A stretch of DNA of 49,139 nt from an uncultured Thiodictyon sp. (lineage in GTDB: Bacteria > Pseudomonadota > Gammaproteobacteria > Chromatiales > Chromatiaceae). Shown here in pieces: positions 36,821-48,909 of the stretch (its first letter is position 1; each line of letters opens with the position of its first letter). The position numbers and the translations under genes were made by a program. The notes below the pieces were generated by a model. It saw only the letters and a list, made by a program, of their open reading frames with translations. It ran no database searches and was not told the origin of the DNA. The stretch is from contig NZ_CAJAXH010000217.1 in the NCBI RefSeq assembly GCF_903946935.1, positions 1 through 49,139 of the forward strand. Reading direction: 5' to 3'.

Positions 36821-38197
36821 CTAAGCGTCGCGTCGACGCAGAAACGCGGCGCGCTGATCCGTAGCGTCGATATGGTTGGCCAAGAGGTCCCAGAACTCCT
36901 CTCGGCCGCGAGCCTGCGCCAAGGTGCGCTGCACCAGGACGCGGGCGATCGGTCCCAAGGTCGCCGCGAGTGCCTGCTGGGCCCGCGCGATCTCCTCCGG
37001 CGGGATGGCCGACGCAGGGCTTTCCTGCGACCGTCCGGCCCCCGTGGTCGGCGGCCGGCTGGTGGGTTGGTGTAGGCCGCTTTGGACCAGCTCGAGGGCC
37101 TCTGACATGAACCGGCGACGCTCCTCCGGACGATCGATGCGCTGCCCCAGGCTTTCGCAAAGGTCCTCCAGCGAGGCGGCGCTCCCGATTGATGTCTGCA
37201 CCAGATAGCGGGCGATGGGGCCGACATGGCTGGCGAGCTTGCGCTCGACGCTGCTCAATAGCGCCGAGTCGAGCTCGATCCCCGTCGCCGGGTCCGGGGC
37301 GCGGGCGGTGAATCTGGTCTGATCGGCGGACGCTGCGGCCGCGATGGTCGTCTGGGCGGCCGGCTCGCCGATCGCCAGCCGCAAGGCCTCGGCCATGGCG
37401 GCGGCGCTGGCGTAACGCTCCTCCGGCCGCTGGGCCAAGGCGCGCGCAATCGCCGCCTGTAAGGCGGGGCCGGCCACGCTCACTAGCTCGCTGTCACCCG
37501 TGGCTGTACCGCGTTGGAGGCCCTGGGCAATTTCAGTGAAGCTGCGGCCACTGAAGGGGCGCTTACCGATCAGCATCTCTTGCAGCACGGTGGCGGTGGA
37601 GAACAAATCGCTGCGCGCGTCGATCCCCTCGCCATAGGACTGCTCGGGCGACATATAGCTGGGGGTGCCGACCACCATGCCGACCTGGGTGAGTTCCGAG
37701 CTGTCGAGCCGCGCAATCCCGAAATCGGTGACCTTGATCCGGCCACCGTCCAGTAACAGGATGTTCGCCGGCTTGATGTCACGATGCACGATGCCGAGCG
37801 CGTGGGCGCAGGAGAGCGCGTCGAGCACCTGACCAATCAAATGAACCGCCGCGGTCGGGGCGAAGCGCTCGCCTTGTGCGAGCACGGTGTCGAGGCTCGC
37901 CCCCTCGACATACTCCATCGCGAGGAAGGGGTCGCCCTCGTGCAGCGCAAAGTCGAAGATCGTGACAATACACGGATGGTTGCAGCGCCCGGCCGCCTGC
38001 GCCTCCCGCTTGAAGCGTTCCACATAGTCTTGGCGCTCCTCGCCCTCCAAGAGGTGGGTGCGGACCAGCTTGATGGCGACCCGGCGCCCGATCACCGGGT
38101 CGTGTGCCTCGTAGACAACGCCCATGGCGCCGCGTCCGAGGGTCCGCACCACCTCGAAGCGGCCGATCGTCGCTGGTAGTGGTGCTTGGCCGTTAAT
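36821..38197 (-). CDS. Serine/threonine protein kinase with duplicated C-terminal module
   Basis: A Hanks-type kinase. From the GTG at 38152 the product is 443 residues, but that start removes the first kinase strand (IGRFEVV). An ATT at 38197, with GGAGG seven bases upstream and two bases after the previous stop, would give about 458. The kinase motifs are complete: GRGAMG loop, VAIKLV lysine, IVHRDIKPANILLL, KVTDFGIARL and GTPSYMSPEQ. After about residue 290 come two copies of a roughly 50-residue helical module: VGPIARYLVQTSIGSAASLE and LGPIARVLVQRTLAQARG. There is no transmembrane helix. It is the third gene of an operon with a heme sensor and a caspase-like protein. Confidence 0.93.
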   Translation of the reverse strand: MNGQAPLPATIGRFEVVRTLGRGAMGVVYEAHDPVIGRRVAIKLVRTHLLEGEERQDYVERFKREAQAAGRCNHPCIVTIFDFALHEGDPFLAMEYVEGASLDTVLAQGERFAPTAAVHLIGQVLDALSCAHALGIVHRDIKPANILLLDGGRIKVTDFGIARLDSSELTQVGMVVGTPSYMSPEQSYGEGIDARSDLFSTATVLQEMLIGKRPFSGRSFTEIAQGLQRGTATGDSELVSVAGPALQAAIARALAQRPEERYASAAAMAEALRLAIGEPAAQTTIAAAASADQTRFTARAPDPATGIELDSALLSSVERKLASHVGPIARYLVQTSIGSAASLEDLCESLGQRIDRPEERRRFMSEALELVQSGLHQPTSRPPTTGAGRSQESPASAIPPEEIARAQQALAATLGPIARVLVQRTLAQARGREEFWDLLANHIDATDQRAAFLRRRDA

Positions 38198-38199
38198 GG

Positions 38200-39075
38200 T
38201 CAGCCCTCCAGGAGCTTCAGCGCCTTCTCCAGACTGCGGCGCATGCGGTTGAACGAGCTGGCGAGTGAGGCGATCTCATCGCGGCCGGTGGGCACGATCT
38301 CCGGGGCCTCCATGTTACCCGTGCTGATCTCGTCGGCGACCACCGACATCCGGCGCACCGGACGCACGATCAGGGTCGTCAGCAGGATATTGAGCAACAA
38401 AATCACCAGGAGAAAGACGCCGGCCAACCCGCCCAGATAGATCTTGAGCGTCTTGTTGGCCTGGTCGATCGCGACCTGTAACGGGACAGTGACGACCTGT
38501 GCGGCGACGACATCGTTGAGCTTCCAGCCGAATCCGTTGGCGGTCCCGTAGAGGTCGATCATGGTCGCCGGTGCGGCCGCGGGTGTGGAGTGACAGGCGA
38601 GACAGCCCGGGTCCTTGAGCCGGATGGGCTTTGACAGTGACAGGGTGGGCCCGAGCGCGGAGTCGCGGGTACTGACGAACTCGGTCAAGTTTGGGTCGCG
38701 GGTGAACTCACCGATGATGTCCGCCTCCCAATCGGTGGCCCGATCCGCCGGATTGGTTGGGTTGAGTGAAGGCTCCTTGTAGGTGTAGCTCGGCAATTCC
38801 TTTTCCAGTACACGGCGCATGTTGGTTTGCGCCGCCCAGGACGGTATCGTGTGCGGGAGGAAGCGCAGCTTGCTCTGCTCGGCCAGCAGCGGGGTAATCT
38901 CGCTCACCGTATAGACGCGGATGGCGGAGGCCGCACTCATCAGTAGCGACGCCTCACGCATCACCTCCCGTCGGGCCTCCGCATTGGCGGCACGGTAGAT
39001 CAGGGTGGCGGCGAGCGTCAGCCCGATCACGAAGGCGACCAGCATCGCCAGATTGAACTTGGTCTTCAGGTTCAT
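38200..39075 (-). CDS. Membrane sensor with DUF3365 heme c domain and HAMP
   Basis: The product is 291 residues starting MNLKTKFNLAMLVAFVIGLT at 39075; the frame extends upstream but lacks support. TM1 is at about 9-30. The periplasmic part (about 30-210) is a DUF3365/Tll0287-type domain with a single heme c site CLACH in KDPGCLACHSTPAAAP. TM2 is LGGLAGVFLLVILLLNILLT, followed by a HAMP domain (VRPVRRMSVVADEISTGNME to RRSLEKALKLLEG). No output domain follows, so it probably signals through partner proteins. The kinase gene starts two bases after its stop in the suggested reading. It could sense redox state, light or gas. Confidence 0.88.
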   Translation of the reverse strand: MNLKTKFNLAMLVAFVIGLTLAATLIYRAANAEARREVMREASLLMSAASAIRVYTVSEITPLLAEQSKLRFLPHTIPSWAAQTNMRRVLEKELPSYTYKEPSLNPTNPADRATDWEADIIGEFTRDPNLTEFVSTRDSALGPTLSLSKPIRLKDPGCLACHSTPAAAPATMIDLYGTANGFGWKLNDVVAAQVVTVPLQVAIDQANKTLKIYLGGLAGVFLLVILLLNILLTTLIVRPVRRMSVVADEISTGNMEAPEIVPTGRDEIASLASSFNRMRRSLEKALKLLEG

Positions 39076-39124
39076 TGTCTTGTTTTCCCCTGTTTCCCGT
39101 GGCGGTTGATTCGGTCCCGGCCAG

Positions 39125-40159
39125 TCAACGCGACGGCCCGTTGAGGAGTCGACCCGCCTGCTCGCCGGTGAGCACACCGGTCAGCTCGGCGCCGATCTCG
39201 TGCTGAAAGCGTCTGATCGCCGCGCGTGATTCCGGTCCGAACTCGCCATCGATACGACCCGAGTAATAGCCTATTTCGGCGAGTGCGACCTGCACGCGTC
39301 GGCGCTCGCTCTGCGTCATCTCGCCCTCGGGCGGCAACGCGACCGCCGGGACGGTGGGCGTCGCGGCGGTTGGGGTTGGTGTCGGCGTGGCGGTTGGGAC
39401 GGCGGATGGGGCGGCCACGGCCTCATCCTCCGCCAGGCGGCGCGAGGATGCCGGCAGCCGCAGCATGGCGATCCGGGGGCTGCCCCCCAGCGTGGCCTCC
39501 AGTCCAGCCAGGAGGTCGGCGGTCTGGACCTGCGGATTCGTGAGCCCCGCTGTGAGCGCGGCGGCCAGCGGGGTGGGTCCGGTCGCGGGTGGCGGTGTGG
39601 TTACCGCCACCAAGCCAACGCCTTCGGGGATCGGCAGCTCGGCGAGTTGACTCAGCACGGGTTCCGGGACCCCGGCGGCCGGCACCAGGTCCAGTGCCAG
39701 CACGCCCCGACTGGGCTGGCCGCGGACCAGCACGTCCAGCAGGGCCTTCACCAGCAGGCCCTGGGTCATGACATCGGACGGCCGCTGGATGCGCGCGGAG
39801 GCCGGCAGCAGAAAGGGCCGGTCGTTCATGCCGGCCCCATAGCCGCAGACATAGACAAAGACGCTGGCGCCCGGCGCCGCCGCCATCCCCCGGCCGAAGG
39901 CATCGATGGCAGCCGCCATGCCTCCGCTGGTGACATCCGCGCGCTCCACCACCTGGAAGCCCAGCCCGCGCAGCCCCTTGGCCAGTGCTTGGGAGGATTC
40001 AAGGCAGGCCGGCAAGGCCGGCAAGACGATGTAGTTGCTGTCGCCGATGACGAGCGCGACCCGCGCCGGTTGCGCCAGCGCGGGGGCGCCGATGAGGAGC
40101 AGCGACAGCCCCGTAAGGGCCGATCGCGCGAAGGCGAAACCTGATTTTTGTTGACGCAT
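39125..40159 (-). CDS. Caspase-fold protein lacking the catalytic dyad, with peptidoglycan-binding domain
   Basis: The product is 344 residues with a signal peptide (ALTGLSLLLIGAPALAQ). The domain at about 30-240 is caspase-like by order: ARVALVIGDSNYIVLPALPA at the start, then LGFQVVERADVTSGGMAAAI, the strand SVFVYVCGYGAGMNDRPFLL and LALDLVPAAGVPEP. Active family members have His-Gly after the first strand and Asp-Ala-Cys after the second; here they read YG and DLV, so both catalytic residues appear to be missing. A Pro/Thr linker (PTATPTPTPTAATPTVP) leads to a PG_binding_1 domain, IGYYSGRIDGEFGPESRAAI, which should bind peptidoglycan. It is the first gene of the operon. Confidence 0.85.
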   Translation of the reverse strand: MRQQKSGFAFARSALTGLSLLLIGAPALAQPARVALVIGDSNYIVLPALPACLESSQALAKGLRGLGFQVVERADVTSGGMAAAIDAFGRGMAAAPGASVFVYVCGYGAGMNDRPFLLPASARIQRPSDVMTQGLLVKALLDVLVRGQPSRGVLALDLVPAAGVPEPVLSQLAELPIPEGVGLVAVTTPPPATGPTPLAAALTAGLTNPQVQTADLLAGLEATLGGSPRIAMLRLPASSRRLAEDEAVAAPSAVPTATPTPTPTAATPTVPAVALPPEGEMTQSERRRVQVALAEIGYYSGRIDGEFGPESRAAIRRFQHEIGAELTGVLTGEQAGRLLNGPSR

Positions 40160-47295: not shown

Positions 47296-48909
47296 TCAGG
47301 CTTCGTCCGCCGCTGTCTGATCGGTCCTGACGGGCGGCTGCTGCGCGTGGGCGGCGCAGTGGGCGGCGTAGGCTATGCATTCGTCTACGTCGAATTCGAG
47401 GGCCTTGAGTAGGGCCAGGGCGTCCCGGAATTCCTCTGGGTCTTTTTTGGTCTCCACACAACGGTAGGCCATGTCCAGAGGGTCCAAGTATTGTTCGTCC
47501 CAGTCGATTTCGCCATTCAAGAACCCGAGGCTTTGAATGACCGCCCGGTCTTCCAGCCACCGTTCCGCTTCCGGCGGCATGGCCGACAATTCGACGCCCT
47601 TGGCTACAAGTGGTTTGGCGAGTTTCGCGACCTCGCCAAGCGGTAGTGTCCATTCCGCGGCGGCGCGAGCGAGCCGGGCGGGCACGATGGTATCCAGCCA
47701 GTCGCCCTCGCCGTCCAGTTGCCAAGAGAGTAGCCGTCGCTCCTGATCGGTTAAGACCGGATCGGGGAAAGTTGCGTCCAGGTCCGGCAACTCGATGCCC
47801 AAAACGGAGAGTGGACGGGCCAAGTCCGCGACCTCCCTAAATGGCATGGACCATACGGCAGCGGCGCGTATGAGATGCGCGGGCATGATGCCGTCCAGCC
47901 ATGGGGAAAGACCAGTCAAATGCCGCGAAAGCAGTTCAATCTGAGTTTCGTTGAAGCGGAGATCTGGAGGGATATGGCCGAGATCCGGTATCTTCACGCC
48001 GAGGTCTGCGAGTGGCCGCGCCAAAAATATGACTTCGCCGATTGTAAGGGACCACTTGGCAGCCGCGAGCGCGAGCTGGACCGGTGTAATGGTATCAAGC
48101 CATGGACCCACGCTGCCCAAGTTCGGCGAGAGCAGCGATAGCTGGCGTTCGGTCAGTGCCGGAGTGGGCGACACGTCGTGTGGAAGTGGCAGTTCAGCGC
48201 CAAGGGCTCCGAGGGCCCGGGCCAACTCATCCACTTTGCCGACTAGATGAGTCGGGCGCGCCGCAGCCATTGCGATTTGGGCCGGCGCAATAGCGTCCAA
48301 CCATGGGGCCTTGCCGTCGAAGTCCCTCGACAAAATCCGCAACTCGTGTGTCCCGACGGTTAGAATGGGCAGGGTAGAATTCGAGTCTGGCAGCTTCGCG
48401 GCAAGGTTCACGAACGGCTGGGCTAGTGCGACGACCTCTCGAATCGGCATCGAGCACTTGAGCGAGAATGCCACGAGTCCGGCAGCGACGCCAACAGCCA
48501 AGTCACCCGATTCCGCCGATATGACCGACTCCGGATCGGTAGGAAGGTAGTCCTTCAAGAGCGTCCAAGTGCCAGCTAAAGGGGCGCCTTCCCTGGTCAC
48601 TGGGTACAGTTCAATTAGCCGGGTCAACGGGGATGGAGCCGAAAGTCCCGCGCTTATCAAAGCGCCAAGACGAGCACGTTTGAGCCCGGACCACTCCTTG
48701 AGCGTCTGCCGCCGGCCACTTATCAAACGATGGGAATCCCGTTCAAAGCAAAGGTCCTGATCCCATTCAAACAATCCAACTCCGCTCGTTGATAGCGACT
48801 GCATTCCCGGACCCCAGGGTAGATTACGAGGGCCGCAGTTTCCCCGGCGTAGTGCGACGTCCAAGCAAATAATCGGCCCCGGGTGCGCATGGAACAGCTC
48901 GCCAAGCAT
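47296..48909 (-). CDS. Unrecognised protein with five ~67-residue helical repeats
   Basis: The product is 537 residues from the ATG at 48909. The first about 130 residues (LKEWSGLKRARLGALISAGL is one clear stretch) match nothing I know. Then come five related units: a degenerate one (LVAFSLKCSMPIREVVALAQ), followed by four with a pattern like LLS..L.G..PWLD.I.PA.LA.AAA.WS.P..EV..LARPL..LG..LPDL. Examples are PWLDTITPVQLALAAAKWSL, PWLDGIMPAHLIRAAAVWSM and DWLDTIVPARLARAAAEWTL. The last about 80 residues include WDEQYLDPLDMAYRC and an Ala-rich tail. The repeats are probably helical hairpins forming a superhelix, as in binding scaffolds. It heads the operon with MNT and HEPN genes. No signal peptide. 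Confidence 0.75.
   Translation of the reverse strand: MLGELFHAHPGPIICLDVALRRGNCGPRNLPWGPGMQSLSTSGVGLFEWDQDLCFERDSHRLISGRRQTLKEWSGLKRARLGALISAGLSAPSPLTRLIELYPVTREGAPLAGTWTLLKDYLPTDPESVISAESGDLAVGVAAGLVAFSLKCSMPIREVVALAQPFVNLAAKLPDSNSTLPILTVGTHELRILSRDFDGKAPWLDAIAPAQIAMAAARPTHLVGKVDELARALGALGAELPLPHDVSPTPALTERQLSLLSPNLGSVGPWLDTITPVQLALAAAKWSLTIGEVIFLARPLADLGVKIPDLGHIPPDLRFNETQIELLSRHLTGLSPWLDGIMPAHLIRAAAVWSMPFREVADLARPLSVLGIELPDLDATFPDPVLTDQERRLLSWQLDGEGDWLDTIVPARLARAAAEWTLPLGEVAKLAKPLVAKGVELSAMPPEAERWLEDRAVIQSLGFLNGEIDWDEQYLDPLDMAYRCVETKKDPEEFRDALALLKALEFDVDECIAYAAHCAAHAQQPPVRTDQTAADEA

Follow-up and report, generated by a model that had tools for sequence, protein, structure and literature searches.

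A heme-type HAMP-only sensor and a Ser/Thr kinase with a STAC-like tandem module: a probable split receptor of an uncultured Thiodictyon

Introduction

As relays of bacterial signaling, HAMP domains have been studied intensively, with the archaeal protein Af1503 serving as a model. In the literature searched, no account was found of the mechanism by which a receptor that terminates at its HAMP domain signals. One such HAMP-only receptor, from P. azotoformans, carries a periplasmic heme domain for which a 2026 preprint uses the name sCache_heme, and in that preprint this protein, which has no axial Cys, is described as releasing nitric oxide (NO) slowly and forming no stable oxygen complex (PMC12889525). 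Pseudo-orthocaspases, i.e., proteins with a caspase fold and a substituted catalytic dyad, occur mostly in Alphaproteobacteria and cyanobacteria, and a survey lists none in photosynthetic Chromatiales (PMC6426788). Here we analyse a stretch of 49,139 nucleotides (nt) from an uncultured Thiodictyon sp. of the Chromatiaceae (contig NZ_CAJAXH010000217.1 of assembly GCF_903946935.1, positions 1 to 49,139; hereafter the window), in which a caspase-like protein, a heme-type sensor that ends at its HAMP domain and a Ser/Thr kinase are encoded side by side. An earlier note made from these letters had described the three genes as an operon, an observation that we confirm, and we propose that they probably constitute a split transmembrane receptor, in which the sensor signals to the separate kinase through a docking module and the caspase-like protein is an accessory. 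The genes are transcribed from the minus strand in the order caspase-like gene, sensor, kinase, and the features considered here are the following.

39125..40159, minus strand: caspase-fold pseudoenzyme of 344 amino acids (Pfam Peptidase_C14 and PG_binding_1)
38200..39075, minus strand: membrane sensor of 291 amino acids from its ATG (Pfam Tll0287-like, DUF3365, and HAMP)
36821..38197, minus strand: Ser/Thr kinase with C-terminal tandem STAC-like GPIA module (Pfam Pkinase)
37088..37273, minus strand: GPIA (STAC-like) repeat 1 of the kinase
36824..37006, minus strand: GPIA (STAC-like) repeat 2 of the kinase

A HAMP-only sensor and a kinase with a tandem module

The sensor is composed of a transmembrane helix, a periplasmic sCache_heme domain (DUF3365/Tll0287; Pfam E 1.1e-33) with the heme motif CLACH, a second transmembrane helix and a HAMP domain followed by the stop codon, the two helices being those seen by hydropathy. 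The HAMP profile match stops 1 amino acid short of the C-terminus, which makes the protein a HAMP-only receptor with HAMP as its sole cytosolic part. It is the sole HAMP-terminating case among the 13 of 14 HAMP matches assessed in its genome (two of the 13 lie on wrong open reading frames, ORFs), and the next shortest tail after HAMP in a plausible ORF is 44 amino acids. Its HAMP domain finds its closest PDB match in that of Af1503. CxxCH is present in all 83 sensors aligned, and within the aligned stretch kept 71 of these, the window sensor included, contain no further Cys. By analogy with the HAMP-only P. azotoformans protein, NO or a redox change is the candidate stimulus of the window sensor; covalent attachment of c heme and binding of NO are known for that relative and are predicted here.

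The kinase retains the catalytic motifs of an active Ser/Thr kinase (VAIK at 25, HRDIK at 123 and DFG at 143 of the 443-residue frame) and has no transmembrane helix by hydropathy. A PASTA-kinase model covers its kinase part alone and leaves out the GPIA module. Likewise, the PADLOC family PD-T4-6 matches residues 3-300, which is the kinase domain alone (E 3.7e-90), while PADLOC returned no match for the caspase-like protein or the sensor; an anti-phage defence role is a possible, less favoured reading. Among related kinases, those of L073, L076, L078 and L079 have HQD in place of HRD with VAIK and DFG retained, and that of L075 also fails the HRDxK pattern.

The caspase-like and sensor genes are spaced by 49 nt. 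The first ATG, GTG or TTG in the kinase frame is at 38152, and the codons 5' of it, LPATIGRFEVVRTLGRG, resemble the N-termini of related kinases; the congener G142 is similar in this respect, and translation of the kinase likely starts at a non-standard codon at 38197, abutting the sensor stop. Within 38152-38202 the candidate start codons are an ATT, or a CTG that overlaps the sensor stop. A non-standard start shared with G142 suggests that translation of sensor and kinase is coupled.

The C-terminal module of the kinase consists of two repeats with a GPIA motif. In 50 aligned repeats G and P are invariant and A nearly so, in agreement with the STAC motif LGPx(x)A, which in STAC joins helices 1 and 2, and in a larger set of 153 repeats a few deviate from it, with I, V, L, M, T, F or Q preceding GP. 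Profile comparisons give weak similarity: E-values of 0.58 and 0.41 with STAC proteins in a PDB profile search, an hhalign E-value of 0.0014 with a probability of 17.6% against eight presumed SLC5-STAC sequences, and weak matches just past the transporter part in four of 11 SSF-type ORFs of related genomes, in which the STAC site was assigned from position and motif instead of a STAC model. When the profile of the presumed SLC5-STAC sequences was run against the PDB, no STAC match was found, Pfam has no family for the window module and yields weak scattered matches among 55 members, and an NCBIfam search returned nothing informative. The tandem module is likely a STAC-like receptor-docking part. 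The duplicated helical module pointed out in the earlier note is thus present, and was understated there, as it is likely involved in receptor docking and is borne by other enzymes too.

Linkage of receptor and GPIA genes across genomes

The linkage was examined from both partners. In a forward search, a profile of 12 sensors was run against GTDB genomes; of at least 590 matching stretches, 558 passed confirmation, and the 80 best loci were retained for analysis. A GPIA-repeat ORF is present in 77 of these 80 loci. It lies 3' of the sensor on the same strand in 74, with a median gap of 15 nt (53 nt or less in 67 of the 74, maximum 466 nt), and upstream of the sensor in three (L093, L095 and L120, with an intervening ORF in L095). 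None was found in the remaining three: L104 and L106 each lie near a contig end on one side, while L090, with its full flanks, is a true exception to the pairing. The link between heme-type sensor and kinase that the earlier note had drawn is supported by these counts. The reverse search, with only the GPIA repeat as query, found matches in 22 of 274 genomes of the class, among them the window's, and gave 22 loci from the 21 others. In 21 of these loci a neighbouring ORF has a HAMP domain that ends 0-10 amino acids before its C-terminus. Eighteen of these neighbours contain CxxCH, L257 is full-length and has no CxxCH, and L266 and L275 are short sensor-type ORFs also devoid of it; L255 is truncated by the start of its contig, and the 22nd locus, L263, has just 144 nt of upstream contig. 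Coupling of a receptor gene to a module with the GPxA motif is thus seen in 77/80 forward and 21/22 reverse loci, two sets that overlap (at least L259, L260 and L269 are in both). No HAMP ORF occurs in 41 comparison loci of unmatched size picked for an unrelated transporter.

In a phylum-wide sample, five of 398 genomes match GPIA, one of them the window's, and in the other four a sensor-profile match with a near-C-terminal HAMP adjoins the gene; three of these matches are truncated by the locus edge, and the fourth (L301) has Tll0287-like and HAMP domains by Pfam. Of 194 genomes of the family, 12 have a close sensor and 13 the tandem module; both occur, always adjacent, in 12, and the thirteenth (G115) is interrupted by a contig end. 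A HAMP-end signature of the RMRxSLxxA type occurs in 59 of the 83 sensors and in 13 of 22 HAMP ORFs from the reverse search, and the other 12 HAMP rows assessed in the window's genome all lack it; as a class definition it is too loose.

The pairing is moreover independent of heme, because the sensor-profile matches of L218-L223, which lack CxxCH, each also adjoin a GPIA protein, here a short one with a single repeat. The five receptors of this group that were inspected stop just past HAMP, that of L218 being composed of dCache_1 and HAMP. The N-terminal part of the short proteins, which we take to be PATAN-like, resembles DUF4388 in the one member scanned (Pfam E 0.014, below the cut-off). These loci form a second branch of the same receptor-GPIA pairing. 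A GPIA ORF again adjoins the sensor in nine loci whose heme-type sensors are distant (L058-L066), but lies on the opposite strand in six, so that there the pairing is not one operon. The sensor of L098 (record title Bordetella parapertussis) is identical to that of L099 (Betaproteobacteria), and the sensor of L116 (Anaerolineae) to that of L124 (Alphaproteobacteria); these are probably mislabelled or contaminated metagenome bins.

Receptor and GPIA protein are hence the core of the system, a pair that recurs widely with interchangeable enzymes. By script rules, the outputs at 83 sensor loci are 51 kinases, 19 kinase ORFs of more than 600 amino acids, eight cyclases, two unassigned proteins and three without output. 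Pfam identifies kinase and Guanylate_cyc domains in the long ORFs of L096 and L088 and Guanylate_cyc in L111, with L103 slightly under the cut-off; the long ORF of L079 is probably over-extended. Furthermore, a TIR domain is joined to tandem GPIA repeats in two genomes of one genus (L057:2293-3249 by Pfam and L225:2385-3407 by eye), and the gene in L057 adjoins a heme-type HAMP-only sensor, making TIR a possible receptor output.

The caspase-like protein and the distribution of the trio

The caspase-like protein carries PG_binding_1 at residues 283-334 and has, by eye, a signal-peptide-like N-terminus. Tyr107 occupies the His site and Val159 the Cys site, so that the dyad of active caspases and orthocaspases is absent and the protein combines the caspase fold with the substituted dyad of a pseudo-orthocaspase. 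This agrees with the earlier reading of the window, and it extends to the family, in which neither His nor Cys is found in any of the 19 full-length members aligned (0/19 for each), a count that includes Rhodovulum L278 and L301, which have no Pfam Peptidase_C14 match, in which the dyad columns are less sure and whose membership rests on the family profile including the peptidoglycan-binding tail. An intact dyad elsewhere in the domain was ruled out, the sole cysteines being Cys52 and Cys105 and Asp157 being followed by Leu-Val. The conserved pair Cys52/Cys105 may form a disulfide or act as a redox element.

The gene is present in 16 of the 80 forward loci (partial in L071 and L122, divergently oriented in L080) and also in G142 and G127. 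With the window's, the sensors of these loci number 19, and one branch of the sensor tree separates them from the rest; five further loci without the caspase label, of which L067 is cut upstream, fall on their side of it. Acquisition of the trio by transfer is probable, because the window and two congeners are nested among alphaproteobacterial sequences in this tree (support 95/88) and five of eight genus members have none of the three genes at the thresholds used. A recognisable trio is also found on a Rhodovulum plasmid. A local chance arrangement is ruled out by its presence in other genera and classes. Conservation of the trio, on which the earlier note had made its reading depend, thus holds across genera and classes, with the qualification that the wall-binding protein, confined to 16/80 loci and one sensor clade, is not part of the core.

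Sensors of other clades have a WPTWP-motif protein (17 of the 80 loci) or FecR-like proteins (L138 by Pfam, below the cut-off, and others by eye) encoded upstream of them, and 47 loci have neither a caspase-like nor a WPTWP protein there. For this reason the caspase-like protein looks like one of several periplasmic accessories. The FWPTWP domain is an unnamed, secreted-looking domain (L087:3661-4995, L092:3822-4955, L134:3699-4970 and 14 other loci) encoded ahead of the sensor gene in gammaproteobacteria and other groups, and the two members scanned have no Pfam match. Elsewhere in the window, at 47296-48909, a protein with four stretches of Pfam wHTH-HSP90_Na-assoc is encoded, which is unrelated to the trio.

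A split receptor and its alternatives

The proposal of a split receptor has a computed basis, i.e., protein anatomy, conservation and receptor-GPIA linkage, while the signaling steps are those that we infer. The reading of the earlier note, in which the wall-bound protein and the heme sensor report an envelope or redox state to the kinase, is partly supported, with redox state, NO and an envelope state as candidate signals. A ligand event at the c heme of the sensor, NO binding or a redox change by analogy with the characterised HAMP-only relative, would alter the conformation of HAMP. The tandem STAC-like module of the kinase would dock on HAMP or on its end and relay the altered state to the kinase domain, taking in trans the role that an output domain fused behind HAMP usually has in cis. 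The caspase-like protein, kept near the cell wall, may be a periplasmic co-receptor or tether specific to its clade, one that binds but does not cut and modulates sensing. An unlikely alternative is that GPIA is not a STAC homologue and makes no contact with HAMP, serving instead in dimerisation or as an adaptor that links the kinase, cyclase or TIR protein with another partner, and the sensor acting through a component encoded elsewhere. The recurrence of the pair in both search directions and with heme-type and non-heme receptors alike argues against it, as do the short intergenic gaps and the presence of the same GPIA motif in Af1502, the known neighbour of a HAMP-only receptor. That the caspase-like protein is a structural wall binder, or has another activity, and accompanies the pair by descent in one clade with no role in signaling is a possibility to be taken seriously, if a somewhat doubtful one. 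It fits the restriction of the gene to one side of a single sensor-tree branch and the WPTWP-type or FecR-like proteins upstream in other clades. However, the protein stands beside the sensor in both alphaproteobacteria and Chromatiaceae at 27-43% identity to the window protein, the trio is retained on the Rhodovulum plasmid, and a secreted protein is often encoded upstream of the sensor, as expected of a periplasmic accessory.

The neighbours of some relatives bring in the type VI secretion system (T6SS). Sensor-kinase pairs on plasmids of Skermanella and Caballeronia are located within or next to annotated T6SS genes; in L113 and L141 the pair is close to TagF/TssM homologues and in L140 to a TssH/ClpB-type ATPase. 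In L301 the whole trio, with a heme-type sensor confirmed by Pfam as Tll0287-like plus HAMP, a peptidoglycan-binding caspase-like protein and a kinase, is near TssF and a T6SS FHA protein. The relatives in or near T6SS genes are L301 (with L297), L276, L277, L113, L140 and L141. Because these few relatives, including a whole trio, adjoin T6SS genes, T6SS is suggested as a possible target pathway of the kinase. A stronger version, which we consider quite improbable, would make the kinase a T6SS regulator of the threonine-phosphorylation kind, with sensor and pseudo-caspase reporting envelope damage instead of NO or redox state. Against this version, five T6SS query proteins match just three of 113 loci, an undercount given few queries and short flanks, and the subset of window ORFs scanned contains no T6SS family.

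The split receptor favoured here could be one case of a general class, for which we see the balance as even. In this plug-and-socket class, any Cache sensor ending at HAMP, with heme or without, would drive any enzyme or adaptor bearing a STAC-like module (Ser/Thr kinase, cyclase, kinase-cyclase fusion, TIR or PATAN-like protein), and one clade would have added a wall-bound pseudo-caspase co-receptor. If true, the class would supply the missing output mechanism for HAMP receptors without output domain, Af1503 included. The loci described here show an Af1503-like arrangement at scale in bacteria, with assayable enzymes (kinase, cyclase, TIR) and a sensor type of known NO chemistry, and HAMP-to-enzyme signaling in trans therefore becomes a testable question. 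A candidate path by which periplasmic heme chemistry could lead to Ser/Thr phosphorylation emerges from them as well. To our knowledge, little has been established about the function of pseudo-orthocaspases, and the trio gives some of them a setting.

Comparison with known systems

The earlier note knew of no such described system. For the trio this stands in the literature searched, whereas its parts have relatives in sCache_heme proteins, pseudo-orthocaspases and Af1503/Af1502. No description of the receptor-GPIA-enzyme pairing or of the trio was found in that literature, which excluded most subscription papers; the paper that first described STAC (J Mol Biol 2015) may already cover some enzyme fusions. 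As in pseudo-orthocaspases, the window protein has a caspase p20 fold with a substituted dyad, and Tyr is the commonest substitute at the His site of that group (PMC6426788). The window family differs in having V, M, F, A and others, not Ser, at the Cys site and in its peptidoglycan-binding tail. The kinase shares all catalytic motifs with PknB-type Ser/Thr kinases, from which it departs by the absence of a transmembrane helix, the tandem GPIA module and the restriction of the PASTA-kinase fit to its kinase part. The sensor has the two transmembrane helices, CxxCH Cache domain and cytoplasmic HAMP of the P. azotoformans HAMP-only protein and, like that protein, which has no axial Cys, no extra Cys; the Results and Discussion of the preprint name no partner for it, whereas the gene adjoining that of the window sensor codes for a kinase with a likely docking module (PMC12889525).

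The arrangement can also be likened to the SLC5-STAC histidine kinases CbrA and CrbS, in which STAC is located between the membrane part and the signaling enzyme. There, however, STAC acts in cis, is single and follows a transporter domain, whereas the window module would act in trans, is duplicated and is C-terminal to the enzyme. Closest is the archaeal pair Af1503/Af1502, in which a receptor likewise ends at HAMP without effector and adjoins a small helical module that bears the GPxA motif (PMC4834066). In the window, by contrast, an enzyme carries two copies of the module in fused form, the sensing part is a Cache of the heme type, and the host is a bacterium instead of an archaeon.

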